Of a DNA stretch of 64,000 nucleotides, positions 13-21,316 are shown piece after piece; position 1 is the first letter of the stretch; each line of letters opens with the position of its first letter. The position numbers were made by a program, and so were the translations under genes. Location of the stretch: positions 1 through 64,000 of the forward strand of contig NZ_OPYI01000001.1 in assembly GCF_900343085.1 (NCBI RefSeq). The letters run 5' to 3'. The notes below the pieces were generated by a model. The model was not told the DNA's origin. It was given only the letters and a program-made list of their open reading frames with translations, and made no database searches. This stretch comes from Aedoeadaptatus coli. Its GTDB lineage: Bacteria > Bacillota > Clostridia > Tissierellales > Peptoniphilaceae.

Positions 13-87
13 GGCCCCGTGGTCAAGCGGTTAAGACACCGCCCTTTCACGGCGGTTACCCGGGTTCGAATCCCGGCGGGGTCACCA
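13..87 (+). tRNA. tRNA-Glu (TTC)
   Basis: Cloverleaf with acceptor GGCCCCG pairing CGGGGTC (one G-U), anticodon loop CTTTCAC giving TTC, a GGTTCGAATC T-arm and an encoded CCA end. It is the first of a same-strand tRNA array that may continue to the left of the window. Confidence 0.97.
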
Positions 88-92
88 TATAA

Positions 93-168
93 GGGCGCAT
101 AGCTCAGTTGGGAGAGCATCTGCCTTACAAGCAGGGGGTCATAGGTTCGAGCCCTATTGCGCCCACCA
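93..168 (+). tRNA. tRNA-Val (TAC)
   Basis: Acceptor GGGCGCA pairs TGCGCCC; the anticodon loop CTTACAA gives TAC; CCA is encoded. It lies 5 bp after tRNA-Glu, in the same transcription unit. Confidence 0.97.
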
Positions 169-172
169 ACCT

Positions 173-249
173 GGCCTGGTAGTTCAGTTGGTTAGAATGC
201 CAGCCTGTCACGCTGGAGGTCGTCGGTTCGAGTCCGATCCAGGTCGCCA
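173..249 (+). tRNA. tRNA-Asp (GTC)
   Basis: Acceptor GGCCTGG pairs CCAGGTC; the anticodon loop CTGTCAC gives GTC; CCA is encoded. It is the last tRNA before an internal terminator. Confidence 0.97.
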
Positions 250-251
250 TT

Positions 252-277
252 ACATAAGTTGCCGCTTATGTTTTTTT
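252..277 (+). terminator. Intrinsic terminator inside the tRNA array
   Basis: Perfect 7-bp stem ACATAAG/CTTATGT with a 6-nt loop, followed by seven T. It splits the array into Glu-Val-Asp and a second unit starting at tRNA-Thr. I could not find a good promoter between it and tRNA-Thr, so read-through may supply the second unit. Confidence 0.8.
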
Positions 278-308
278 GAAAGAAGAGCTCTTAATTAGTT
301 GTCATTGT

Positions 309-384
309 GCTGGTGTAGCTCAATTGGTAGAGCAACTGATTTGTAATCAGTAGGTTAGGGGTTCAAGTCCTCCCACCAGCTCCA
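309..384 (+). tRNA. tRNA-Thr (TGT)
   Basis: Acceptor GCTGGTG pairs CACCAGC; anticodon loop TTTGTAA gives TGT; CCA is encoded. First gene after the internal terminator. Confidence 0.97.
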
Positions 385-400
385 GTGCGAAAGCACTTTT

Positions 401-486
401 GGAGGAGTTCCCGAGTTGGCCAAAGGGGACGGACTGTAAATCCGTTAGCTCAGCTTTCAGTGGTTCGAATCCACTCTCCTCCACCA
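401..486 (+). tRNA. tRNA-Tyr (GTA)
   Basis: Class II tRNA with a long variable arm. Anticodon stem ACGGA/TCCGT with loop CTGTAAA gives GTA; acceptor GGAGGAG pairs CTCCTCC; CCA is encoded. Confidence 0.97.
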
Positions 487-580
487 TATTACCAATTTAA
501 GTTAGAGGCGGTAGTTGGGTCGCTATGCGGTTCTTCGAATCGACCTTCTCCAGTACCGGGAGTTATTTCGATATTCACCT
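487..580 (+). other. Possible decayed tRNA relic between tRNA-Tyr and tRNA-Gly
   Basis: This 94-bp gap is much wider than the other spacers in the array. It holds a D-loop-like GGTAGTTGGGT and a T-arm-like GGTTCTTCGAATC followed by TTCTCCA. No acceptor stem closes and no anticodon arm is convincing, so this is at best a degenerate tRNA or a chance resemblance. Confidence 0.3.
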
Positions 581-654
581 GCGGGTGTAGCTCAGTGGTA
601 GAGCCCCAGCCTTCCAAGCTGGTTGCGAGGGTTCGATTCCCTTCACCCGCTCCA
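581..654 (+). tRNA. tRNA-Gly (TCC)
   Basis: Acceptor GCGGGTG pairs CACCCGC; anticodon stem CCAGC/GCTGG with loop CTTCCAA gives TCC; CCA is encoded. Confidence 0.97.
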
Positions 655-657
655 CGA

Positions 658-734
658 GCACCTATAGCTCAGTAGGATAGAGCAACGGACTTCTAATCCG
701 TGTGTCGGGGGTTCGAATCCTCCTAGGTGCGCCA
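658..734 (+). tRNA. tRNA-Arg (TCT)
   Basis: Acceptor GCACCTA pairs TAGGTGC; anticodon loop CTTCTAA gives TCT; CCA is encoded. It follows tRNA-Gly by 3 bp. Confidence 0.97.
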
Positions 735-743
735 TTAATTTAT

Positions 744-820
744 TGGGGCGTAGCCAAGTCGGTAAGGCACCAGACTTTGACTCTGGCATTCCACAGGTTC
801 GAGTCCTGTCGCCCCAGCCA
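744..820 (+). tRNA. tRNA-Gln (TTG)
   Basis: Acceptor TGGGGCG pairs CGCCCCA; anticodon stem CCAGA/TCTGG with loop CTTTGAC gives TTG; CCA is encoded. Confidence 0.97.
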
Positions 821-824
821 TTAT

Positions 825-900
825 GATCCATTAGCTCAGTTGGCAGAGCACCTGACTTTTAATCAGGGTGTCCCGCGTTCGAGTCGCGGATGGATCACCA
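825..900 (+). tRNA. tRNA-Lys (TTT)
   Basis: Acceptor GATCCAT pairs ATGGATC; anticodon loop CTTTTAA gives TTT; CCA is encoded. Confidence 0.97.
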
Positions 901-905
901 TAATA

Positions 906-994
906 GGAGAGGTATCGAAGCGGTCATAACGAGGCGGTCTTGAAAACCGTTAGGGTTCACGCCCACGTGGGTTCGAATCCCACCCTCTCCGCCA
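906..994 (+). tRNA. tRNA-Ser (TGA)
   Basis: Class II tRNA with a long variable arm. Acceptor GGAGAGG pairs CCTCTCC; anticodon loop CTTGAAA gives TGA; CCA is encoded. Confidence 0.97.
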
Positions 995-998
995 ATAA

Positions 999-1089
999 GG
1001 AGAAGTACTCAAGTGGCTGAAGAGGCTCCCCTGCTAAGGGAGTAGGTCCTTCACGGGGCGCGAGGGTTCAAATCCCTCCTTCTCCGCCA
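999..1089 (+). tRNA. tRNA-Ser (GCT)
   Basis: Class II tRNA with a long variable arm. Anticodon stem CTCCC/GGGAG with loop CTGCTAA gives GCT; acceptor GGAGAAG pairs CTTCTCC; CCA is encoded. Confidence 0.97.
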
Positions 1090-1097
1090 ATTTGTGA

Positions 1098-1174
1098 GGG
1101 CCTTTAGCTCAGTTGGTTAGAGCTCCCGGCTCATAACCGGTAGGTCCAGGGTTCGAGTCCCTGAGGGCCCACCA
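1098..1174 (+). tRNA. tRNA-Met (CAT)
   Basis: Acceptor GGGCCTT pairs AGGGCCC with one G-U; anticodon loop CTCATAA gives CAT; CCA is encoded. The paired first acceptor position argues against initiator tRNA. Elongator Met is most likely, but a lysidine-modified Ile tRNA cannot be excluded by eye. Confidence 0.93.
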
Positions 1175-1178
1175 TTAA

Positions 1179-1254
1179 GCCCAGATAGCTCAGTCGGTAG
1201 AGCAGCAGACTGAAAATCTGCGTGTCGCTGGTTCGATTCCGGCTCTGGGCACCA
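1179..1254 (+). tRNA. tRNA-Phe (GAA)
   Basis: Acceptor GCCCAGA pairs TCTGGGC; anticodon loop CTGAAAA gives GAA; CCA is encoded. It is the last tRNA before the array terminator. Confidence 0.97.
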
Positions 1255-1273
1255 GTTGAGTAAAGACTCGGAG

Positions 1274-1298
1274 CTGTAGCCGTGGCTACAGTTTTTTT
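1274..1298 (+). terminator. Terminator of the tRNA array
   Basis: Perfect stem CTGTAGCC/GGCTACAG around a 2-base centre (the loop opens to 4 in practice), followed by seven T. Confidence 0.88.
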
Positions 1299-1332
1299 AT
1301 ACAATTTCCTAATCGGGAACCATGAAAAGGGA

Positions 1333-1361
1333 TTGAAAACAGTGTAAAAATCTGTTAGTAT
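1333..1361 (+). promoter_or_regulatory. Promoter of tRNA-Trp
   Basis: TTGAAA (1333-1338), a 17-bp spacer and TAGTAT (1356-1361), ending 15 bp before the mature tRNA-Trp. It makes tRNA-Trp a separate transcription unit. Confidence 0.65.
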
Positions 1362-1376
1362 ATTAACATCAAGTAT

Positions 1377-1451
1377 AGGAGTATAGTTCAGTGGTAGAAC
1401 GTTGGTCTCCAAAACCAAATGTCGTGGGTTCAAATCCTACTACTCCTGCCA
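1377..1451 (+). tRNA. tRNA-Trp (CCA)
   Basis: Acceptor AGGAGTA pairs TACTCCT; anticodon stem TTGGT/ACCAA with loop CTCCAAA gives anticodon CCA; the 3' CCA is encoded. It stands alone between its own promoter and terminator. Confidence 0.97.
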
Positions 1452-1947: not shown

Positions 1948-2478
1948 ATGAATACTTTGAAGATTATGAAAAGAGTATCTATATTTAGTTTATTATCTTT
2001 GGCCCTGACCCTGGTGGCCTGTGGTCCCAAAGAGACCAAAGACCCGGCCCAAGCACTGGCCGAAGACTTTGCCAAGCTCTACCTGACCCAGCTGGACTTT
2101 AAGGAAGAGGATTGGAGGCAGTTGGAGGAAGATCTTAGCCGGGCAGGTCAGGTCCTTAGACTGGATGGAGACCTGGAAGCTAGACAAGAAGCGGCCCGGG
2201 ATCTGCCCGCTCTCTATGACCCCTTTAAGGAAGTCATGACCCGGGAGGCACTGGAGACGATGGTGGCCAATGGGGATTACCCCTACTTCCCCCTAAGAGA
2301 GAGGAACTTGGACAGTGTGGATCTTGTTTCTGTTACAAGAGTGGACCCGGATGATGATAGCTACGACCTGGTCTTTGTCACCAAGAAGGGGGACCGAGAG
2401 ACCCGGCATGTCCTCAGGGCTACTATTCGCCAAAAAATTTTCTATTTGGAAAGTCCCAGCCAGGTTTTTGACCTGTGA
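1948..2478 (+). CDS. Putative lipoprotein carried in the IS-like element
   Basis: 176 residues. The start is the ATG at 1948, preceded by GAGAGGG; an in-frame ATG at 1900 would add a non-signal stretch. The N-terminus is a lipoprotein signal: Lys/Arg-containing n-region, a hydrophobic stretch from about residue 10, and lipobox LVAC with Cys25. The mature part is acidic and helical (about residues 30-110), followed by a probable beta-rich end. I do not recognise a family. The gene lies between inverted repeats and beside a transposase remnant, in place of most of the transposase, so it looks like a passenger. The product should be a membrane-anchored surface protein; its function is unknown. 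Confidence 0.75.
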   Translation: MNTLKIMKRVSIFSLLSLALTLVACGPKETKDPAQALAEDFAKLYLTQLDFKEEDWRQLEEDLSRAGQVLRLDGDLEARQEAARDLPALYDPFKEVMTREALETMVANGDYPYFPLRERNLDSVDLVSVTRVDPDDDSYDLVFVTKKGDRETRHVLRATIRQKIFYLESPSQVFDL

Positions 2479-2632
2479 GGGAAGTAAAAAGTCTGCTAGC
2501 AAATGCCATGGTCATTCTGCCGGCAGCCTTTTTTGGTCAATCTCTTACAATTTAGTCTCCATGAAAAATCGGTTCTATGTCAACCATTGGGGAATCTAGT
2601 GAAAACCAGGCTCCTCTTTATTTTTCTATAAG

Positions 2633-2815
2633 TTACTCATCACCGATCTGTCGAACAAACACCCATTTGATTCGAAAATGGTGAAAGTTGCGCATCTCAC
2701 AGGCGATGTGCTTCACCGTCTTGATCTTGTTGTGTGTTTCTTCCACATAGCCGTTGCTCTGTGGGAAATCAACGCTGCCGGGTAGCACTCCAAACCGATT
2801 CCGGTAGTCGCGTAA
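2633..2815 (-). pseudogene. C-terminal remnant of an ISL3-family transposase
   Basis: The minus strand gives an open stretch of about 61 residues ending at the TAA complementary to 2633-2635. It contains SNGYVEETHNKIK and later MRNFHHFR. ISL3-family transposases end with a related pattern (SNG.vEG.N.KIK, then RNF..FR). There is no start codon and no catalytic N-terminal part. Upstream, 2816-2911 shows no further transposase, so this is a deletion remnant that cannot be active. Confidence 0.75.
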
Positions 2816-2911
2816 GCAAGTGCGCCGCTCCCCTTATCCGTTTTTTTCGCCTTGCCTATTCCATGTAAAAGGAGAATGCTTTGAAGCAGCTATCTTTTTG
2901 CACAAAAATAT

Positions 2912-2950
2912 CCATTGAGGAGCTTACTCTCCAATGGATAGGATAGAGCC
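2912..2950 (-). repeat. Right inverted repeat of the IS-like element
   Basis: The complement begins GGCTCTATCCTATCCATTGG and aligns with the left end at 1496-1533. Its inner part is palindromic (TATCCATTG/CAATGGATA). It ends 15 bp before the stop codon of the neighbouring gene. Confidence 0.7.
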
Positions 2951-2964
2951 TTTTAGGTGGCGAA

Positions 2965-3768
2965 CTATCGACTTTTGTTGCGGAGTTCATGAATGAATGA
3001 AAGCAGGGTATCGTAATAGACGACAGGATCCAAAGCAAAAATCAAATAGCCTTCCGGCACCGGCACGCTTTGTTCGATGGGCATGTCGCTTTCAAGGACG
3101 AGGGCGCGGCGTTCGGCGTCGTAGGGAAGGATTTTCGCCGGAGCATCCAGGGTAAAGCGGCCCGCCTTTTCCACGTAGAGCAGATCGTCCCATTGTACAT
3201 AGCGGTCCATGGCTCCATCGGTTTTTCCCGTGATTTGAAAGGGATGAAGCGTGAAGCCGTCGATTTCCAAATCGCCGCGGCGCAGGCGACTCTTCAACTG
3301 CTGTAAATATTTTTCTGCCGCCGCCATGGCATTCAGATTACCTTTTATTTGCTCCACGAGGGCCTCAGGCGTCGCTTCTTTAAAAAATCGGGAGAAATCC
3401 TCGCCGACGCACACGGATCCCACGTAGCCGCCTTGAAGGGCCAAATTAGACAGGCGATAGGAGGCGAGGGGCGCGAGGGCCGTGCGTTTTTTTATTTCGT
3501 CGTAAAGATCCGCCGCCCTTTCCAGACGCTCCCGTGCTTTTTTTGTTAAATAAGGCCAAAGAATGCGGGTTTCAAATTGCCCGTGAAAGAGATATAGGGT
3601 ATTCTGTATAGGTAAAGATTCCAAGGCGCGATTTAAGGGAGCGATCCAATCTTCTGCCGGATCTTCCGCCTCCCTTTCGATGATGAAATCTTCTCCGAGG
3701 ATGCCGTAGGCCACAGGGCGCGCCTTGGGACCGTAATGAGAACAATAAATTTGTAAGAAATAAACCAT
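2965..3768 (-). CDS. Hypothetical protein, 267 residues
   Basis: The start is the ATG at 3768, preceded on the minus strand by CAGGAGG; the longer frame would run into the divergent cysteine desulfurase gene. No signal peptide or membrane segment is seen. The N-terminal half contains LYLFHGQFETRIL, which faintly recalls the NxxFE segment of DEDD-type RNase H-like exonuclease folds, but the other acidic motifs are not evident. The C-terminal half looks beta-rich. The start codons of this gene and the desulfurase are 44 bp apart, so their promoters must overlap. The right end of the IS-like element abuts its stop codon. Function unknown. Confidence 0.7.
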   Translation of the reverse strand: MVYFLQIYCSHYGPKARPVAYGILGEDFIIEREAEDPAEDWIAPLNRALESLPIQNTLYLFHGQFETRILWPYLTKKARERLERAADLYDEIKKRTALAPLASYRLSNLALQGGYVGSVCVGEDFSRFFKEATPEALVEQIKGNLNAMAAAEKYLQQLKSRLRRGDLEIDGFTLHPFQITGKTDGAMDRYVQWDDLLYVEKAGRFTLDAPAKILPYDAERRALVLESDMPIEQSVPVPEGYLIFALDPVVYYDTLLSFIHELRNKSR

Positions 3769-3812
3769 GATTTCCTCCTGGGGCAAGTATACCACAGGAA
3801 AAGGAGGCACCG

Positions 3813-4937
3813 ATGATTTACTTAGATAACTGCGCCACGACGCGGCCGCTGAAATCCGTAATCGACGCCATGACCGTCGCATTGCAGGAGGATTTTTCCA
3901 ACCCCTCCAGTTTGCACCAATTCGGCTATTCCGTGAGCAAGAAAAAGGAAGCCATTCGCGAAAGCATCAAGGACTATTTTAATTGCCGAAGCGGCGAACT
4001 CTACTTCACCTCCGGCGGCACGGAGTCCAACAACACGGCCATTCGCTCCGCCATCGAAAACAAGGGCGCGGGAAAAAATGTGGTGACGACGAATATCGAG
4101 CACCCTTCTATATTAAATGTCATTAAAGCATCGGAGATGGAGCTGCGCCAAGTGGCCATCGACGAAACGGGGCATATCGCTTTCGAGAAACTCATGGCTG
4201 CCATGGACGAGGACACGGTGCTTGTGAGCCTCTTTCACGTGAACAACGAGCTGGGGAGCATCAATCCCGTGGAAGAATGGATTCCGAAGATAAAGGCGGC
4301 CTACCCGACGGTGAAGGTCCACGTGGACGGGGTGCAGGCCGTGGGAAAACTCCCGGTCGACTTTGACGCCATGGGTTGCGACACCTATTCCTTTAGCGGC
4401 CACAAATTTCACGGCCCCAAGGGCATCGGAGGCCTCCTCGTGAAAAAATCCGTGAAGCCCTTTATTTACGGGGGCGGACAGGAAATGGGCATGCGCAGCG
4501 GCACGGAAAACATTCCGGGAATTTACGGCCTGGGCGCCGCCTTCGATGCATTGAAAGAAGAGGGCATCGCATTGGATGAAGCCGAGGCGCGCATGGCCCA
4601 TTTAAGAGCCGCCATCGAAACCATCGACGCGATTTCCATTAACACCACGGCGCCGGCGAGTCCCTATATTTTAAATGTCAGCTTGGCAGACACCCGGGGC
4701 GAGGTGCTTCTCCATATGTTGGAGGAAAAAGAAATCTACATTTCCACCTCCAGTGCCTGCTCCAGCCATCGCACCGGAAAAAATCCCGTGTTAACGGCCC
4801 TGGGCCTTTCGGATAATTTTGCCGAAGGGACCATCCGTCTGTGTTTGAGTCGGGAAACGACTATGGAGGAATGCGACGAATTCGTCGAGGCCCTGAAGGA
4901 AGCAGTGGAGACCATTCGCTCCATTATGAGGAGGTAA
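3813..4937 (+). CDS. Cysteine desulfurase (class V aminotransferase fold)
   Basis: 374 residues, start ATG after AAAGGAGG. It removes sulfur from cysteine with pyridoxal phosphate and carries it as a persulfide. Visible signatures are the N-terminal YLDNCATT, the SGGTESNN cofactor-binding segment, the PLP lysine in SGHKFHGPKG (Lys198) and the persulfide cysteine in SSACSS (Cys316). Its stop lies just before thiI, separated only by an RBS-containing spacer. In Gram-positive bacteria such paired desulfurases (NifZ type) feed sulfur to ThiI for 4-thiouridine in tRNA, and that is the likely role here rather than general Fe-S assembly. An IscS-like broader role is not excluded. Confidence 0.94.
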   Translation: MIYLDNCATTRPLKSVIDAMTVALQEDFSNPSSLHQFGYSVSKKKEAIRESIKDYFNCRSGELYFTSGGTESNNTAIRSAIENKGAGKNVVTTNIEHPSILNVIKASEMELRQVAIDETGHIAFEKLMAAMDEDTVLVSLFHVNNELGSINPVEEWIPKIKAAYPTVKVHVDGVQAVGKLPVDFDAMGCDTYSFSGHKFHGPKGIGGLLVKKSVKPFIYGGGQEMGMRSGTENIPGIYGLGAAFDALKEEGIALDEAEARMAHLRAAIETIDAISINTTAPASPYILNVSLADTRGEVLLHMLEEKEIYISTSSACSSHRTGKNPVLTALGLSDNFAEGTIRLCLSRETTMEECDEFVEALKEAVETIRSIMRR

Positions 4938-4938
4938 T

Positions 4939-6126
4939 ATGAAGCGTATACTCAGTTTAAGTTTAGGCGAGGTGGTGCTGAAAGGCGCCAATCGCCGCTA
5001 TTTTATCCGCAGGATCATTCAGAACATCGAGAGTAGCTTGTCCGATGTCGGGTATATAGACATTAAGTCGGAAATGGGGAAAATCCAGGTGGAAATCGAC
5101 CCGGCGGTGGAGGCGACGGCCATCAATCGCCTGCGCTTCGTCTTCGGGATCGTGTACATTTCCCCGAGTTGGTGCTTTGAAAAAGACTGGGACCGGCTGA
5201 AAGAAGAGACGGTCAATTACATCGACGGCCTTTTAAAAGAAGAGCCGGAATACAAGACCTTTAAGGTCGTGACAAAGCGGAGCGACAAGGCCTTTTTCAA
5301 GGACTCCCAAGAGGTGAATATGGATCTCGGGGGAGTGATACTGGATCATTTCTCAGATCGCCTCGCCGTGGACGTCCACGATCCGGACTTCTATCTCTAC
5401 GTGGACATTAAAAACGAGATGTACCTGTACCACAAAAAAATCCCCACCTACGGCGGCCTGCCCCTGGGCACCAACGGCAAAGGCCTGCTCCTTTTAAGCG
5501 GCGGCATCGATTCGCCGGTGGCGGGCTTTTTAATGGCGAAGCGCGGCGTGCAGGTGGATGCCCTGCATTTCCACTCCTATCCCTTCACCTCGCCTCAGGC
5601 CGAGGAAAAGGTCATGAATCTGGCGAAAATTCTCGCCCGCTACGTGGTCAAGATGAATGTGTACAGCGTGAATCTTTTGCCCATTCAAAAAGAGCTGAAC
5701 AAGCACTGCCCGCCGGAGGAAATGACCGTCCTTTCCCGTCGCTTTATGATGCGCATCGCCAATCGCCTGGCGGATCAGCACGGCTACAAAAGCGTGATTA
5801 CCGGGGAAAACCTGGGACAGGTGGCGAGCCAAACCATCGACGGCCTCACGGTCATGAACGACGTGGCGGAGCGCATCGTCTTCCGCCCCCTCATCGGCAT
5901 GGACAAGGTGGACATTATTCGCTGGGCCGAGCGCATCGAGACCTACGAGACCTCCATTCAGCCCTTTGAAGATTGCTGCACCGTCTTTTTGCCGAAACAC
6001 CCGAGCCTCAGGCCCACGGTGGAAGATATGGAAGCCTCGGAGGCGAATTTAGACATCGAGGCCCTGGTGGACGCGTCCATGGAAACATTGAAAGTCACAA
6101 CCATTCGAGCAAAGGAGGACCGATGA
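4939..6126 (+). CDS. thiI: tRNA 4-thiouridine sulfurtransferase ThiI
   Basis: 395 residues. ThiI adenylates U8 of tRNA and transfers sulfur to make s4U. N-terminal ferredoxin-like and THUMP domains cover roughly residues 1-165. The PP-loop SGGIDSP starts at Ser187, and the C-terminal part contains a DCC motif (EDCCTVF). There is no added rhodanese domain, as in the short Gram-positive form, which relies on the neighbouring desulfurase. The RBS GAGGAGG precedes the ATG, and the stop overlaps the start of lemA by ATGA, so translation is probably coupled. A tRNA array lies nearby, which may be coincidence. Confidence 0.96.
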   Translation: MKRILSLSLGEVVLKGANRRYFIRRIIQNIESSLSDVGYIDIKSEMGKIQVEIDPAVEATAINRLRFVFGIVYISPSWCFEKDWDRLKEETVNYIDGLLKEEPEYKTFKVVTKRSDKAFFKDSQEVNMDLGGVILDHFSDRLAVDVHDPDFYLYVDIKNEMYLYHKKIPTYGGLPLGTNGKGLLLLSGGIDSPVAGFLMAKRGVQVDALHFHSYPFTSPQAEEKVMNLAKILARYVVKMNVYSVNLLPIQKELNKHCPPEEMTVLSRRFMMRIANRLADQHGYKSVITGENLGQVASQTIDGLTVMNDVAERIVFRPLIGMDKVDIIRWAERIETYETSIQPFEDCCTVFLPKHPSLRPTVEDMEASEANLDIEALVDASMETLKVTTIRAKEDR

Positions 6127-6683: not shown

Positions 6684-7475
6684 ATGAAAAAGCGCCTGTT
6701 CCTACTGGTTCTGGCCCTGTGCTTTTTGTCCCTACCCGTCTTTGCCGCCGGCCTTCCCGAGGCCACGAAGGAATTCTACGTCTACGACGAGGAAGGCATA
6801 TTAAGCGACGAGGCGAAAAGCGACATCGTCAGAACCAATGAGTCCCTTTTCGAACAAACCGGGGCCCAGGTAGTGGTCTGCATTCTGAATCACTTGCCCG
6901 AGGACAAAACCGTCGAAGAAACGGCCGTGGATCTATTCGACAAATGGGACATCGGCACCAAGGAAAAAGACAACGGCATCCTGCTACTTATCGCCATGAA
7001 AGACAGAAAGTTTAGAATCGAAGTGGGCTACGGTTTGGAAGGCGCCATTCCGGACATGGTGGCCAAAGAGATTTTAGACGACATGGTGCCCTATTTCCAA
7101 GACGGCAATTACGAAGCGGGCATCCGCGTGGCCTTTGGCGAAATCCTGTCGAAGGTGGAAGAGGAATACCAAATCACCATCGAGGGCAAAGATGCTGTGA
7201 TCGAGGCCGTCGAAGAGGAGACTGATATAGGGGAATGGAAAGAGATGATTCGTCTGGCGATGCTCGTCGTTCTGATCATCATCATATTCGGTCGCGGAAA
7301 TAATCGCGGCGGCCGAGGCGGCTATAGAGGACCGTTCTTCTTCCCCTTTGGCGGTGGCTTCGGCGGAGGCGGCTTTGGCGGAGGCAGCTTCGGAGGCGGT
7401 GGCGGTTTCGGCGGCGGAGGCAACTTCGGCGGCGGCGGATCCTCCGGCGGCGGCGGCGCCAGCGGCGGTTGGTAA
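6684..7475 (+). CDS. TPM-domain (YgcG-like) membrane protein with Gly-rich tail
   Basis: 263 residues, 9 bp after lemA. A Sec signal peptide (cleavage near PVFAAG) leads into an exported TPM domain (about 30-170) with YVYDEEGILS, DNGILLLIA and EVGYGLEGAIPD. One membrane segment follows at about 188-202. The last 50 residues are almost only Gly, Ser and Phe and end in SGGW, typical of this family. TPM proteins form an extracytoplasmic dome-like fold; the exact role is not settled. It is co-transcribed with lemA and closed by a strong terminator. Confidence 0.92.
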   Translation: MKKRLFLLVLALCFLSLPVFAAGLPEATKEFYVYDEEGILSDEAKSDIVRTNESLFEQTGAQVVVCILNHLPEDKTVEETAVDLFDKWDIGTKEKDNGILLLIAMKDRKFRIEVGYGLEGAIPDMVAKEILDDMVPYFQDGNYEAGIRVAFGEILSKVEEEYQITIEGKDAVIEAVEEETDIGEWKEMIRLAMLVVLIIIIFGRGNNRGGRGGYRGPFFFPFGGGFGGGGFGGGSFGGGGGFGGGGNFGGGGSSGGGGASGGW

Positions 7476-7505
7476 AAATCCCGACATAGAGCCCAAAAAC
7501 CATTT

Positions 7506-7538
7506 AATCGAGAGAGCTTTTGCTTTCTCGATTTTTTT
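7506..7538 (+). terminator. Terminator of the desulfurase-thiI-lemA-TPM operon
   Basis: Stem ATCGAGAGAGC/GCTTTCTCGAT with loop TTTT, followed by seven T. Confidence 0.88.
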
Positions 7539-7581
7539 GTGGCAATCTTCTCAATTCGACTGTATTATTTCCGTGAAAAAC

Positions 7582-7610
7582 TTGCCAAGAAGCCTTCCGT
7601 CCGATAAAAT
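7582..7610 (+). promoter_or_regulatory. Promoter of the apbE operon
   Basis: TTGCCA (7582-7587), a 17-bp spacer and TAAAAT (7605-7610). Transcription would begin near 7617, leaving a leader of about 157 nt before apbE. Confidence 0.7.
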
Positions 7611-7616
7611 AGGTAG

Positions 7617-7773
7617 TACAGAGATTCTTTGACAGAATTTCGACGACAACGAGCGAACGCATCGGTTCGCGGCGCCATGCCAGGCATGTAGCGCAATGAG
7701 TGTACGCAATAGGAACGGCAAACCCGTTCTTTTTCTATGTTTTCGCCCAATCGGGCGCTGAGAGAAGGAAAGC
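7617..7773 (+). promoter_or_regulatory. Structured 5' leader of apbE, candidate cis-regulatory RNA
   Basis: Successive helices are visible: GATTCT/AGAATT, GCGAAC/GTTCGC (7653-7670), CATG/CATG nested in GCGC arms (7673-7694), an intrinsic terminator (7713-7734), and CGCCC/GGGCG (7744-7757) just ahead of the RBS. This is the layout expected of an attenuation-type riboswitch or protein-binding leader. I do not recognise a known class; FMN, TPP, preQ1 and S-box consensus cores are absent. Confidence 0.5.
7713..7734 (+). terminator. Attenuator-like terminator in the apbE leader
   Basis: Stem GAACGG/CCGTTC with a 5-nt loop and five T, 40 bp before the apbE start and downstream of the promoter. In this position it would act on the operon's own transcript. 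Confidence 0.65.
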
Positions 7774-8949
7774 ATGAAAAAATTACTGGCCCTATGGATG
7801 GCGGTCCTGGTCCTTATGACCGGGTGCGGACAAAAGAATACGGCACAGAACGAGCCGAGCAATAAGAACGAGGTGCAGGCAAGTGAGACGGGGGAAATTT
7901 CCCGCTACCAAACCACTTTTTACGACACCTTCGATACGGTGGTGAGCGCCATCGTCTACGCTTCCAGCGAAGAAGAGGCCAACGCGTATTTTGAAACCAT
8001 TCACAAGCGCTACCAGGAGCTGGACCACCTGTACAGCAGCTTTAAAAATTACGACGGCATCGTCAATGTGAAGTCCGTGAACGATCAGGCCGGCAAGGGC
8101 AAGGTCGTCGTGGACGAGGAATTGTACGATCTGCTTCGCTTCTCGGAGGAGCAGTACAAGAAATACGGCGAGACGAACATCGCCTTCGGCGCCGTCACGT
8201 CCATTTGGCAAAGCTACCGGGATGCCTACGAAGTGGTGCCGGAATCGGAACGCTCTGCCGACGACGAGGCCTTGAAAAAAGGCCTGCCCGACGCGAAGAT
8301 CCCTACCATGGAGGAGCTTCAGGCGGCCAATAAACATACGAACATCGACGACATCGTCTTAAACGACGCGGATCATTCCGTAGAAATAAAGGATCCCGAG
8401 CTGAAAATCGACGTGGGCGCCGTGGCCAAAGGCTATGCCACGGAGCTGATCGGCGAAGAGCTGCGGGCATCGGGCCTGAAAACCGCCCTGATCAGTGCCG
8501 GCGGCAATGTAAAAATCATCGGTTCCGCGCCGGAGGCGGAGCGCAACAGCTTCGGCATCGGCCTGCAAAATCCGGAAGCCATTACAGGCGAAGGCTCGGC
8601 GGAAGACAACATGAAAGACATCATCTACACCAACGACACTTCCGTGGTGACCAGCGGCGATTACCAACGCTACTACATTGTGAACGGGAAGCATTATCAC
8701 CACTTAATCGACCCGGACACTTTGATGCCGGCGGATCATTTCCGCTCCGTCACCATCGTGACCAAAGACAGCGGCTTGGCGGATTTTCTTTCCACTACGG
8801 CTTTCTGCCTGCCCTATGAAAAGGGCCGCGCCCTCATCGAAAGCTTGGACGGCGTCGAGGCCTATTGGATTTTCGAAGACGGCTCCACGGCTTTCACCGA
8901 CGGCCTGAAACCCATGCTTGACAGTCAGGGGGCGACGAATGCGCAATAA
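7774..8949 (+). CDS. apbE: FAD:protein FMN transferase ApbE, lipoprotein
   Basis: 391 residues, RBS GAGAGAAGGA. ApbE attaches FMN from FAD covalently to Thr/Ser of membrane flavoproteins such as Rnf or Nqr subunits, outside the membrane. The lipobox is LMTGC with Cys18. Family motifs are YDTFDTV near the start, KIDVGAVAKGYA, ALISAGGNVKIIG, and near the end SVVTSGDYQRYY and HHLIDPDTLMPA. No Rnf or Nqr genes lie in the window, so its target is elsewhere. It heads a same-strand run to the hydrogenase-like gene and sits under a structured leader. Its stop overlaps the next start. Confidence 0.94.
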   Translation: MKKLLALWMAVLVLMTGCGQKNTAQNEPSNKNEVQASETGEISRYQTTFYDTFDTVVSAIVYASSEEEANAYFETIHKRYQELDHLYSSFKNYDGIVNVKSVNDQAGKGKVVVDEELYDLLRFSEEQYKKYGETNIAFGAVTSIWQSYRDAYEVVPESERSADDEALKKGLPDAKIPTMEELQAANKHTNIDDIVLNDADHSVEIKDPELKIDVGAVAKGYATELIGEELRASGLKTALISAGGNVKIIGSAPEAERNSFGIGLQNPEAITGEGSAEDNMKDIIYTNDTSVVTSGDYQRYYIVNGKHYHHLIDPDTLMPADHFRSVTIVTKDSGLADFLSTTAFCLPYEKGRALIESLDGVEAYWIFEDGSTAFTDGLKPMLDSQGATNAQ

Positions 8950-9436
8950 TTTGCTCATTTTCTCACTGGCTCAATTGTTTTTGATATTGATCTACGCCGT
9001 GGTGTTGATCTATCTGCACTTATCGCCTGCGCTTGAAAGTGCCGTTTACGGCCACTTTTTTCTCCGGCTGATTCCGGCGGTGCTCACGGCCTTGGTCTAT
9101 CTCGTCGTCGGCCGCTTTATGAATGTCAAAGGGCTCACCGACGGCATGTTGGTCTTGGTTCTGCCGGCTGTGATTTGGGGCATTTGCCTCGCCATGGCCT
9201 ACTTCGGCGGCGGCGCCGAAGGATTTGTGCGCGGCGCCTTCCGTTCCCTGTGGCGTTTTCCCGCCGACATCACCATGCTGCCCCAAATGGCCGTGGTGAG
9301 CCTTCTCAGGCTTAAGCAAACCACGGCGGTTTACGCGGCATCGGCGGTGATTCCCCAGTGCCTCGCCCTTCTTGTGGCGGCACGAGGCCCCGTCACCTAC
9401 CGGCGCCGACGCGACAGCAGACGTCGGGAGAAATAG
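8939..9436 (+). CDS. Hypothetical membrane protein
   Basis: 165 residues. The start is taken at the ATG at 8939, which overlaps the end of apbE by 11 bp and has CAGGGGG upstream. There are about four hydrophobic segments (near residues 7-28, 43-60, 68-90 and 128-147) and a strongly basic C-terminus rich in Arg. I do not recognise a family. Translational coupling to apbE suggests a membrane partner or substrate-related role, but nothing in the sequence proves it. Confidence 0.75.
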   Translation: MRNNLLIFSLAQLFLILIYAVVLIYLHLSPALESAVYGHFFLRLIPAVLTALVYLVVGRFMNVKGLTDGMLVLVLPAVIWGICLAMAYFGGGAEGFVRGAFRSLWRFPADITMLPQMAVVSLLRLKQTTAVYAASAVIPQCLALLVAARGPVTYRRRRDSRRREK

Positions 9437-9448
9437 AAAGAGGACAAG

Positions 9449-9964
9449 ATGTATAATTACGATATGAAGCGCCTGTATGAAACCACCATCGAGGCGTTAA
9501 AAGATAAAGGCATAGAAATTTCAGACATTGCGGACATCGTTTACGAGCTGCAAAAGGACTACGTGCCCGTTACCATGGATCTGTGCGAAGAGCACGTCCT
9601 GGCCGTGCTTCGAAAAAGAGAAACCATCCACGCCGTCTTAACGGCCCTGGCCATCGACAAAGCCGTGGAACAAGGGCGCTTTGAAGAGCCCATTCAATCC
9701 ATTATTGCAAACGACGAAGGTCTCTACGGCATCGACGAGGTGCTGAGCCTTTCCATCGTCAATATTTACGGCTCCATCGGGCTCACGAATTTCGGCTTTT
9801 TAGATAAAAAGAAAATCGGCATCATCGATGAATTAGATAAACGAAAAGGCGATGAAGTTACCACCTTCAGCGACGACATGGTGGCGGCCATCGCCGCCGC
9901 AGCGGCCTCTCGATTGGCCCATAGCAATAGAATGAAAGAGGAGGGAGAAAATCATGAAGCGTAA
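9449..9964 (+). CDS. pgpA: Phosphatidylglycerophosphatase A family protein (YutG-like)
   Basis: 171 residues with RBS AGAGGAC. It matches the soluble Firmicute PgpA/YutG type: GIEISDIADIVYELQKDYVP, VLRKRETIHAVLTALAIDK, NDEGLYGIDEVLSLSIVN, GSIGLTNFGFLDK and DDMVAAIAAAAASR. PgpA-family enzymes remove phosphate from phosphatidylglycerophosphate to give phosphatidylglycerol, which is also the substrate of MprF encoded 3 kb away. The short soluble form is less well characterised than the membrane enzyme, so the exact substrate is inferred. The stop overlaps the start of queT. Confidence 0.85.
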   Translation: MYNYDMKRLYETTIEALKDKGIEISDIADIVYELQKDYVPVTMDLCEEHVLAVLRKRETIHAVLTALAIDKAVEQGRFEEPIQSIIANDEGLYGIDEVLSLSIVNIYGSIGLTNFGFLDKKKIGIIDELDKRKGDEVTTFSDDMVAAIAAAAASRLAHSNRMKEEGENHEA

Positions 9965-10451
9965 ACTCACGACCCATTGGATCGCGACCACAGCCGTATT
10001 GGCGGCGGTTTACTACGCCCTTACTGTGGTTTTTGCCCCTATTTCCTACGGCCCCGTTCAATTCCGCGTATCGGAAATTATGAACCTTTTGGCCTTTTAC
10101 AATCCCGCCTTTGCGCCGGGCATCGTCCTCGGCGTCTTCCTTTCGAATATAAGCTCGCCCCTCGGCCTATACGATTTATTCTTCGGCACCTTTCACACGG
10201 CGATCAGCTTGTATTTTATGTGTAAGCTCCACAAGAAGTGGGTGGCAAGCCTCATGCCCGCCCTATTCTCCTGGATTATTGGTTTCGAGTTGGTTCTTGC
10301 TTTCGGCGGCGGACTCGTCGGATTTTTGACCATGAGCCTATCGGTTGCGGCCAGCGAAGTGATCATCTGCACCCTGATCAGCTTGCCCGTGTACGAAGCT
10401 TTGGACAGAAATGCGGCCTTTCGTTCCATTGTCAGCAAGAATCCGCAGTAG
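9954..10451 (+). CDS. queT: QueT family transporter (ECF substrate-binding subunit)
   Basis: 165 residues, start ATG at 9954 overlapping pgpA by 11 bp, RBS GAGGGAG. QueT proteins are membrane S-components thought to import queuosine precursors through a shared ECF module. The family core is clear: PVQFRVSEIMNLLAFYNPAF and PGIVLGVFLSN, with about five hydrophobic segments. The ECF ATPase and T-component are not in this window. QueT genes often carry a preQ1 riboswitch; none is seen here because the gene is internal to an operon. Confidence 0.9.
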   Translation: MKRKLTTHWIATTAVLAAVYYALTVVFAPISYGPVQFRVSEIMNLLAFYNPAFAPGIVLGVFLSNISSPLGLYDLFFGTFHTAISLYFMCKLHKKWVASLMPALFSWIIGFELVLAFGGGLVGFLTMSLSVAASEVIICTLISLPVYEALDRNAAFRSIVSKNPQ

Positions 10452-10472: not shown

Positions 10473-10727
10473 ATGAGAGTAAAAGTTTGTGTCGGCGCCC
10501 GCTGCACCATGATGGGCGCAAGTGCCGTTCTCGACGCCTTGGAAGATCTTCAACAACGCTATTTTAAAGACGGCGGCCTGGATATCGTCCACGTCAACTG
10601 CATGAACGTATGTAAAGAAAAGGGCGAGAAGTATACGCCGGTCGTTGAAATCGACGGCGAGGTTTTTACGACCGTAAAACCCCACGAGATTTCGGGCGTT
10701 ATCTTAGAACGCGCCGGAATACAATAA
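10473..10727 (+). CDS. Thioredoxin-like [2Fe-2S] ferredoxin (NuoE/HndA C-terminal type)
   Basis: 84 residues, RBS AGAAGGAGAG. The four cysteines CVGARC near the start and CMNVC near residue 48 are spaced as in the thioredoxin-like [2Fe-2S] domain of NuoE and of NAD-dependent hydrogenase subunits, but the N-terminal helical domain is absent. It lies 38 bp ahead of the hydrogenase-like gene, so it probably passes electrons to that protein. No NuoF-like flavoprotein subunit is nearby, so a direct link to NADH is not supported. Confidence 0.82.
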   Translation: MRVKVCVGARCTMMGASAVLDALEDLQQRYFKDGGLDIVHVNCMNVCKEKGEKYTPVVEIDGEVFTTVKPHEISGVILERAGIQ

Positions 10728-10765: not shown

Positions 10766-12280
10766 ATGAAAGAAAGTTATGCAAGTATCGTAAGTCTTCG
10801 CCGTCGCGTATTCTCTGAAATCGCAAAGATGGCCTATGCGGACACCCCGCTGCAAGAATTGGAATCCATCGGTCACCGTCTCTATCCCGGTACGTCTCCC
10901 GACGACAGAGAGGAGCTCTTCAGAAAGCGCGCCATCGTAGAAGAAATGACGCGCCTGGCTATGGGTATGAACTTGCGTGATTACGACGAGTACATAAAGG
11001 TAACCGAAGGCTTCGACGACGTGGACGTCTCCACGAGCATCTTCAAGACGCCCTTAGTCGACGTCATTAAATTCGCCTGCGAATCCTGCCCCACCCGCGC
11101 CTTTACCGTAACCAACAACTGCCGCAAGTGCATGGCCCATCCCTGTACCAATGTGTGCCCGGTGAATGCCGTGTCCATCGGCCAATACGGCGCCGTCATC
11201 GACCAATCGAAATGCGTGAAGTGCGGTCGCTGTAAGCGTACCTGCCCCTACAACGCCATCGTCGAATACGATCGCCCCTGTGCCTCGGTTTGCGGCGTCG
11301 GCGCCATCGAAAGCGACGACAAGGATCGCGCCATCATTAACCACGACAAATGTGTGGGCTGCGGCCGCTGCGTCGTGCAATGTCCTTGGGGCGCTATCGG
11401 CGACAAGACCATGATCTATCAGTTGGTCAAGGCCTTGAAGGAAAAGAACAAGCGCATTTACGCCATTCCCGCGCCGAGCTACATCGGCCAATTCGGCGCC
11501 GACACCTCGCCGGAGCAAGTCCGCGCCGCAGTAAAGGCACTGGGCTTTGAAGACATGGTGGAAGTCGGCCTCGGTGCAGACTACACTACCCTCCACGAAG
11601 CCAAGGAATACTTGGAGCGCGTGCCGGAAGAAATCCCCTTCATGGGTACCAGCTGCTGCCACTCCTGGACGCTTCTCATCGAATACAAGTTCCCCGAACT
11701 GAAAGAATACGTCTCCGATTCCGGCAGCCCCATGCGCTACACGGCGGAACACATTAAGCGCAAGGATCCCGACGCACTGGTTTGCTTCGTCGGTCCCTGT
11801 ACGTCGAAAAAAGTGGAAGCCATTACCGGTGAAGTCAAAGACTATGTGGACTTCGTCATTACCTTCGAAGAGCTCATGGGCATGTTCGTGGCAAAAGACA
11901 TCGAACCCTCTGAAATCGAAGCAGTGGACGAAGAGGAAGAATCCTCCTCTTCCGCTAAGGGCTATGCCATGGCCGGCGGCGTCGCCGCAGCGGTAAAGGA
12001 AGTAGCCGAAAAGATCGATCCCGAACGCCACATTAAGATCGAAGGCGCCAACTCCCTTAAGGAATGTATCCGCATGCTTCAAATGGCCAAGGCCGGCAAG
12101 AAAGACGGCTACCTCTTGGAAGGCATGGCTTGCGAAGGCGGCTGCATCGCAGGAATGGGCACCATCGCCTCCACCACCCGCGTGCGCAAGGCATTGACCA
12201 ACTACATGAAAGATTCCGAATATCAAACGCCTCTGGAAAACGTCCTGATCGACGATTCTTTAAAGGACTTCAGTAAATAA
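10766..12280 (+). CDS. [FeFe]-hydrogenase-like protein with 4Fe-4S domains
   Basis: 504 residues, RBS GAGGAGG. After an N-terminal helical region of about 100 residues come cysteine-rich clusters including CRKCMAHPCTNVCP, CVKCGRCKRTCP and CVGCGRCVVQCP (about 110-215). The C-terminal domain carries the three H-cluster segments: TSCCHSW, GPCTSKK and MACEGGCIAG. Classical enzymes have Pro after TSCC; here it is His. The third segment resembles group B enzymes (CEGGC). It should evolve or consume hydrogen with ferredoxin, alone or with the small [2Fe-2S] protein upstream. A sensory or other redox role is possible. A terminator follows. Confidence 0.87.
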   Translation: MKESYASIVSLRRRVFSEIAKMAYADTPLQELESIGHRLYPGTSPDDREELFRKRAIVEEMTRLAMGMNLRDYDEYIKVTEGFDDVDVSTSIFKTPLVDVIKFACESCPTRAFTVTNNCRKCMAHPCTNVCPVNAVSIGQYGAVIDQSKCVKCGRCKRTCPYNAIVEYDRPCASVCGVGAIESDDKDRAIINHDKCVGCGRCVVQCPWGAIGDKTMIYQLVKALKEKNKRIYAIPAPSYIGQFGADTSPEQVRAAVKALGFEDMVEVGLGADYTTLHEAKEYLERVPEEIPFMGTSCCHSWTLLIEYKFPELKEYVSDSGSPMRYTAEHIKRKDPDALVCFVGPCTSKKVEAITGEVKDYVDFVITFEELMGMFVAKDIEPSEIEAVDEEEESSSSAKGYAMAGGVAAAVKEVAEKIDPERHIKIEGANSLKECIRMLQMAKAGKKDGYLLEGMACEGGCIAGMGTIASTTRVRKALTNYMKDSEYQTPLENVLIDDSLKDFSK

Positions 12281-21168: not shown

Positions 21169-21202
21169 AATGGAAGGAAAACATTTCCTCAATTTTATAA
21201 GT

Positions 21203-21316
21203 ATTCTTCGGGGCGAGGTGCGATTCCTCACCGGTGGTAAAGTCCACGAGTCATTTTGATTGAATCGGTGCAATTCCGATACCGACGGTATAGTCCGGAT
21301 GAAAGAAGAAGCGAAG
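21203..21316 (+). promoter_or_regulatory. FMN riboswitch (RFN element)
   Basis: Contains the conserved RFN core: TTCGGGGCGAGGTGCGATTCC, TCACCGGTGGTAAAGTCCACGAG, then ATCGGTGCAATTCCGATACCGACGGTATAGTCCGGATGAAAGAAGA (in pieces over 21206-21310). A hairpin AAGACAAC/GTTGTCTT (21314-21333) and a terminator (21350-21375) follow. FMN binding should favour termination ahead of ribD, so flavin represses the operon. Confidence 0.96.

Follow-up and report, generated by a model that had tools for sequence, protein, structure and literature searches.

The window, a 64,000-nucleotide stretch of Aedoeadaptatus coli DNA, carries an operon that runs from apbE to an [FeFe] hydrogenase gene and is preceded by a structured leader. 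Does this leader control transcription of the operon, and, if so, which part of it would do so? We favor, with somewhat better than even confidence, the reading that it is an orphan transcription attenuator, i.e., an intrinsic terminator ahead of the apbE-to-hydrogenase operon that is either conditional or leaky and that, within the genomes searched, is confined to Aedoeadaptatus. The window host, a member of the genus Aedoeadaptatus (Peptoniphilaceae), was labeled G000 in a comparison of eight genomes. The seven congeners were Peptoniphilus rachelemmaiella (G005), Aedoeadaptatus pacaensis (G004), A. urinae (G006), P. nemausensis (G002), A. coxii (G001), A. ivorii (G007), and a further congener (G003). 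apbE was present in all eight. The seven-species leader alignment comprised G000–G006, without A. ivorii; in it, "body" denotes positions 7611–7710 (134 columns), the 16-mer positions 7724–7739, and the post-terminator part positions 7740–7773 (37 columns).

Promoter and gene context of the leader

The operon lies on the forward strand. Its first gene, apbE (7774–8949), encodes a lipoprotein of the FAD:protein FMN transferase family (Pfam ApbE, 5.5e-61) and is followed by genes for a membrane-type protein that has no Pfam or NCBIfam match and is conserved beside ApbE in the genus (8942–9436), a PgpA-like protein (9449–9964; Pfam PgpA, 3.5e-20; NCBIfam CobZ below cut-off), a QueT transporter (9954–10451; Pfam QueT, 4e-38), a thioredoxin-like [2Fe-2S] protein (10473–10727; Pfam, 1.1e-7), and a group B1 [FeFe] hydrogenase (10766–12280; NCBIfam TIGR04105, 577 bits against a cut-off of 450). 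These Pfam and NCBIfam assignments agreed with the functions that a sequence-only reading of the window had given to the genes. The succession from apbE to the hydrogenase gene was also found in six named congeneric loci by ORF listing, which misses small or overlapping genes.

The same reading had placed a clear promoter ahead of a leader of about 157 nt. A sigma-70-like promoter, TTGCCA-17-TAAAAT, matched 10 of 12 consensus positions at 7582–7610 (+), with a predicted start near 7617, and three promoter-like sites were counted in 7300–7900 against a shuffle mean of 0.2. In the seven-species alignment, 11 of the 29 columns from −35 to −10 were invariant. The promoter (−35, 17 bp, −10), leader, and terminator preceded apbE in the same order in seven of the eight species, the exception being A. 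ivorii. No promoter-like match was detected in A. coli between the terminator and the apbE start codon. The operon has no other evident promoter than the site at 7582–7610. On the upstream side, a TPM-domain gene (6684–7475) is closed by a predicted intrinsic terminator with a 12-bp stem (7506–7533, +), which separates it from the apbE unit. Since no promoter-like match follows the leader terminator in A. coli and the upstream gene has its own terminator, expression of apbE should require transcripts begun at 7617 to read through.

The upstream neighbor of the apbE unit differed among the species. It was the TPM gene in A. coli, P. rachelemmaiella, and A. pacaensis; a divergent Crp-family gene in A. 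urinae and P. nemausensis; a divergent formate/nitrite transporter gene in A. coxii (L060, 4906–5661, −); and an arsR-family regulator gene (Pfam) in A. ivorii (L061, 5417–5764, +). The Crp-family gene was followed by genes for a 4Fe-4S protein and a sulphite/nitrite-reductase-domain protein (L087 and L059, about 2088–5719, −). By its varied content, the junction upstream of apbE looks like an insertion hotspot. The retention of the promoter-to-apbE unit although its upstream neighbor differs favors the attenuator reading. The original proposal of an attenuator leader is thus supported, with a terminator between the sole evident promoter and apbE in seven of the eight species.

Sequences just upstream of the −35 element fell into two versions. 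About 30 nt were conserved in A. urinae, P. nemausensis, and A. coxii (GCAATGTATTTTAGGGG...; corresponding to window positions 7539–7581), and A. coli, P. rachelemmaiella, and A. pacaensis had a different version in common, which includes an additional −10-like element, TATTAT/TATAAT. This segment is possibly an activator site, an UP element, or a second promoter.

The terminator and its possible switching partners

An intrinsic terminator with an 8-bp stem, a 5-nt loop, and a U-tract is predicted at 7711–7734 (+); its end lies 39 bp upstream of the apbE ATG (7774), close to the 40 bp given in the earlier reading. Terminator-like sites were only slightly more frequent than expected from sequence statistics (two found, one of them belonging to the upstream gene, against 0.9 expected); it is the conservation of a 16-nt run in seven of the eight congeners, not the statistics, which indicates that the apbE terminator is more than chance. 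This run (7724–7739, +) consists of the 3′ arm, the U-tract, and CUAUG, and all 16 of its columns were invariant among the seven species. The exact 16-mer occurred once per genome in seven of the eight genomes, each time at apbE; A. ivorii had no exact copy. The eight inner stem pairs formed in all 56 cells (seven species by eight pairs), and two of the eight varied, between A-U and G-U only. Both-sided changes were absent from this stem because its 3′ arm never changes. Flanking sequences on both sides differed between species and the 16-mer did not, and we therefore read its identity as constraint rather than as a shared recombination tract.

Two ordinary gene-end terminators served as controls. 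The terminator of the TPM gene, about 200 nt upstream, was the same in A. coli and P. rachelemmaiella and different in A. pacaensis, A. coxii, and A. ivorii. The terminator after the hydrogenase gene was recognizably similar in A. coli, P. rachelemmaiella, A. pacaensis, and A. urinae, and not in P. nemausensis or A. ivorii, which indicates that some ordinary terminators drift less than that of the TPM gene. Even against these controls, the apbE terminator is unusually conserved.

The A. ivorii genome has the same 11-nt terminator core, CCGTTCTTTTT, followed by GG instead of CTATG. In this species it sits immediately downstream of the arsR-family gene, over 100 nt upstream of apbE, and probably just ends that gene in the ordinary way. 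Two histories would fit: the apbE promoter may have captured what was ancestrally a gene-end terminator, or the arsR gene may have been inserted ahead of the terminator.

Three kinds of switching partner were sought around the terminator: sequestration of the Shine-Dalgarno sequence by the U-tract, an antiterminator, and a leader peptide. None was found genus-wide. A hairpin at the RBS had been claimed, and the MFE structure does contain one adjoining it (7740–7763, +), which together with the U-tract is predicted to be able to extend over the Shine-Dalgarno-like purine stretch at 7763–7769 (+). Only two of the 37 columns in 7740–7773 were invariant among the seven species. The RNAalifold consensus contained two both-sided changed pairs in this hairpin. 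In the four-species alignment, one pair changed on both sides, a level reached by 237 of 500 shuffles and thus not above them. The RBS-side hairpin appears weakly conserved at most. The duplex of the U-tract with the Shine-Dalgarno sequence (−4.8 to −10.9) was within the range of 36 other Shine-Dalgarno-bearing upstream regions of the window, taken from 49 genes of which 13 without the motif were dropped. By eye, P. nemausensis and A. coxii have their own Shine-Dalgarno-pairing hairpin instead. When transcripts cut before the 3′ arm were folded, the 5′ arm of the terminator was mostly unpaired in A. coli, P. rachelemmaiella, and A. pacaensis, and it found an alternative pairing in A. urinae, P. 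nemausensis, and A. coxii, and partly in G003. No antiterminator was common to the seven species.

The attenuator reading is weakened by this result and by the probable gene-end nature of the A. ivorii terminator. Its main rival is a fixed, unregulated partial terminator that merely sets a low expression of the operon, to which we assign a minor yet appreciable probability. Such a device needs neither a genus-wide antiterminator nor a conserved sensor, of which we found none, and the seeming dependence of the operon on readthrough in seven species would suit it. However, an invariant 3′ arm with CUAUG is not obviously needed to hold a fixed level, and the ordinary TPM terminator nearby drifts freely.

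It is unlikely that the stretch from promoter to terminator encodes a small RNA of its own, about 118 nt long, and that apbE is expressed through leakage only. The promoter and the terminator are conserved, the latter strictly so in its 3′ half, as a seed might be, but the body contains no conserved segment (4 invariant columns of 134), and it matched no Rfam sRNA. Furthermore, a regulon search with the 16-mer (both strands, up to two mismatches) yielded totals not far above those of the reversed-pattern control and no clear target signal. Repeat copies of the leader were not found elsewhere in its own genome, and a comparison with a plasmid collection gave no match.

The 5′ body and known RNA families

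The leader (7617–7773, about 157 nt) folded with an MFE of −50.3 kcal/mol (z = −2.02), and 6 of 200 shuffles were equally stable. Its MFE structure comprised five local hairpins, as many as the minimum that had been claimed: 7621–7641, 7653–7670, 7672–7694, 7711–7731 (the terminator, with its U-tract to 7734), and 7740–7763. The 5′ body (7617–7710, +) contains the first three and is weakly closed by a long-range helix, 7617–7620/7701–7704. At gathering thresholds, Rfam 15 assigned the leader to no family, and relaxing the limit to E = 10 added nothing beyond chance matches (best E = 6.4); none of the seven congeneric apbE loci had a hit at the gathering threshold. The search works here, since it detected a clear FMN riboswitch (RF00050) at 21200–21314 (+) with 110 bits in the same window. 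The claim that the leader belongs to no known riboswitch class was accordingly upheld for the window, the leader, and the seven congeneric loci. Rfam also marked 14 closely packed tRNA genes at 13–1448 (+). Literature searches found nothing on a riboswitch leader of apbE and no term-seq study of Peptoniphilus. The titles and opening abstract lines of papers on Aedoeadaptatus concerned no RNA of the genus, and the main text of PMC8040213 did not mention apbE, flavin, hydrogenase, or Peptoniphil-.

The body, in which an aptamer would be expected, appeared lineage-specific, with 4 of its 134 columns invariant. Between A. coli and the five aligned species other than P. rachelemmaiella, its identity was 46–53%, compared with 45–49% for shuffled sequence: it was at the shuffled level for A. 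urinae and A. pacaensis and about 0.7 to 2.5 SD above shuffles for P. nemausensis (50%), A. coxii (47%), and G003 (53%). It stayed near the shuffled level even where ApbE was 82–84% identical. Between A. urinae and A. pacaensis, whose ApbE proteins were 93% identical, body identity was 47% (shuffled, 44%) and that of the promoter stretch 55%. Swapping of the body by block recombination between these two was considered and rejected: fast non-coding divergence suffices, as the A. coli and A. pacaensis sequences around the TPM terminator could not be aligned by eye either. RNAalifold on A. coli, P. rachelemmaiella, A. pacaensis, and A. urinae returned the terminator and the post-terminator hairpin and no body fold, and the 5′ helices of A. 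coli were common to one sister species only, P. rachelemmaiella. On the leaders of A. urinae, P. nemausensis, and A. coxii, it added to the terminator one weak helix, in which several cells were broken and one pair was changed on both sides. Across species, the body had neither a consensus structure nor covariation. Covariation among the apbE leaders of relatives, which had been proposed as a check, was thus absent for the body; conservation was limited to the terminator and, to a weak degree, the hairpin beside the RBS. The idea of a new regulatory RNA, understood as an aptamer-like structure, was not supported by this comparison.

A new riboswitch or another aptamer-type RNA is therefore very unlikely in our estimation, even though the body seems to be retained within some lineages. 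The bodies of A. coli and P. rachelemmaiella folded better than shuffles (z = −2.53 and −2.46; −0.27 to −1.59 in the other five), and they were 95% identical (97 of 102 alignment columns) compared with 74% at four-fold sites of apbE (119 of 160). A second body type was common to A. urinae, P. nemausensis, and A. coxii, with 53–65% identity compared with 47–49% for shuffled sequence and 37–47% at four-fold sites, which argues for such retention. Both cases count against the body being pure spacer. Against an aptamer stands the lack of sequence or structure conservation between the A. coli and P. rachelemmaiella bodies and the other five. By comparison, the FMN riboswitch was found in all eight genomes, its best copy being 86–97% identical in the seven congeners over most of the aptamer. 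The body is, on this measure, far too variable for an aptamer sensing one ligand genus-wide. Each of the eight genomes also had a second, diverged copy of the FMN aptamer.

Ribosome-mediated attenuation through a leader peptide is extremely unlikely: the 16-mer would read Pro-Phe-Phe-Phe-Tyr in one frame and several leaders have ORFs there, but no RBS-bearing start codon is shared, starts and ends differ across the seven leaders, and A. urinae has no ORF through the terminator in that frame (stop read by eye).

Proposed mechanism and comparison with known attenuators

Here, we propose a terminator-type attenuator whose modulator probably acts at the terminator, as none of the switching partners sought was found genus-wide. 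RNA polymerase would start near 7617 and, unless something intervenes, stop at 7711–7734, releasing an RNA of about 118 nt. Readthrough would give the operon mRNA, with its RBS predicted beside or partly within the second hairpin. What the comparison showed is the order of promoter, leader, terminator, and apbE, the strict conservation of the terminator 3′ half with CUAUG, and the retention of the stem. Given the lack of conservation in the 5′ body, the putative modulator of termination is more likely a factor or a condition of RNA polymerase at the terminator than an aptamer-bound small molecule, and it probably acts at the terminator itself.

A more specific form of this proposal, which we regard as quite doubtful, is that the invariant CCGUUCUUUUUCUAUG is a putative binding site of a trans-acting factor deciding termination and that the 5′ domains act as modules that differ by lineage and can be exchanged for one another. 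If so, this would be a modular attenuator whose conserved part is the terminator, not a sensor. In either form, the attenuator would place transcription of a compact redox operon of Peptoniphilaceae anaerobes, which covers flavin transfer, queuosine-precursor transport, and FeFe hydrogenase, under control at its entry point. By telling the conserved terminator apart from the variable body, the comparison of congeners shows that a structured leader can lack an Rfam match without being a riboswitch.

T-box, RAT, and leader-peptide attenuators are examples of terminator-based control; unlike these, the apbE leader matches no Rfam family and has no leader peptide. It resembles the FMN riboswitch as a cis-regulatory leader in the same genome with a flavin-related subject, but differs in having neither a model match nor deep conservation. 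In the available parts of the reports, leader terminators of E. coli were found by 3′-end mapping (PMC7815308), and transcription and translation attenuation are combined at B. subtilis vmlR (PMC9226507). Those terminators were mapped experimentally, whereas that of the apbE leader is predicted, and apbE, unlike vmlR, is no ABCF resistance gene. As far as these parts describe them, the mapped leader terminators have in common with the proposed apbE attenuator a premature termination of transcription between promoter and coding region.
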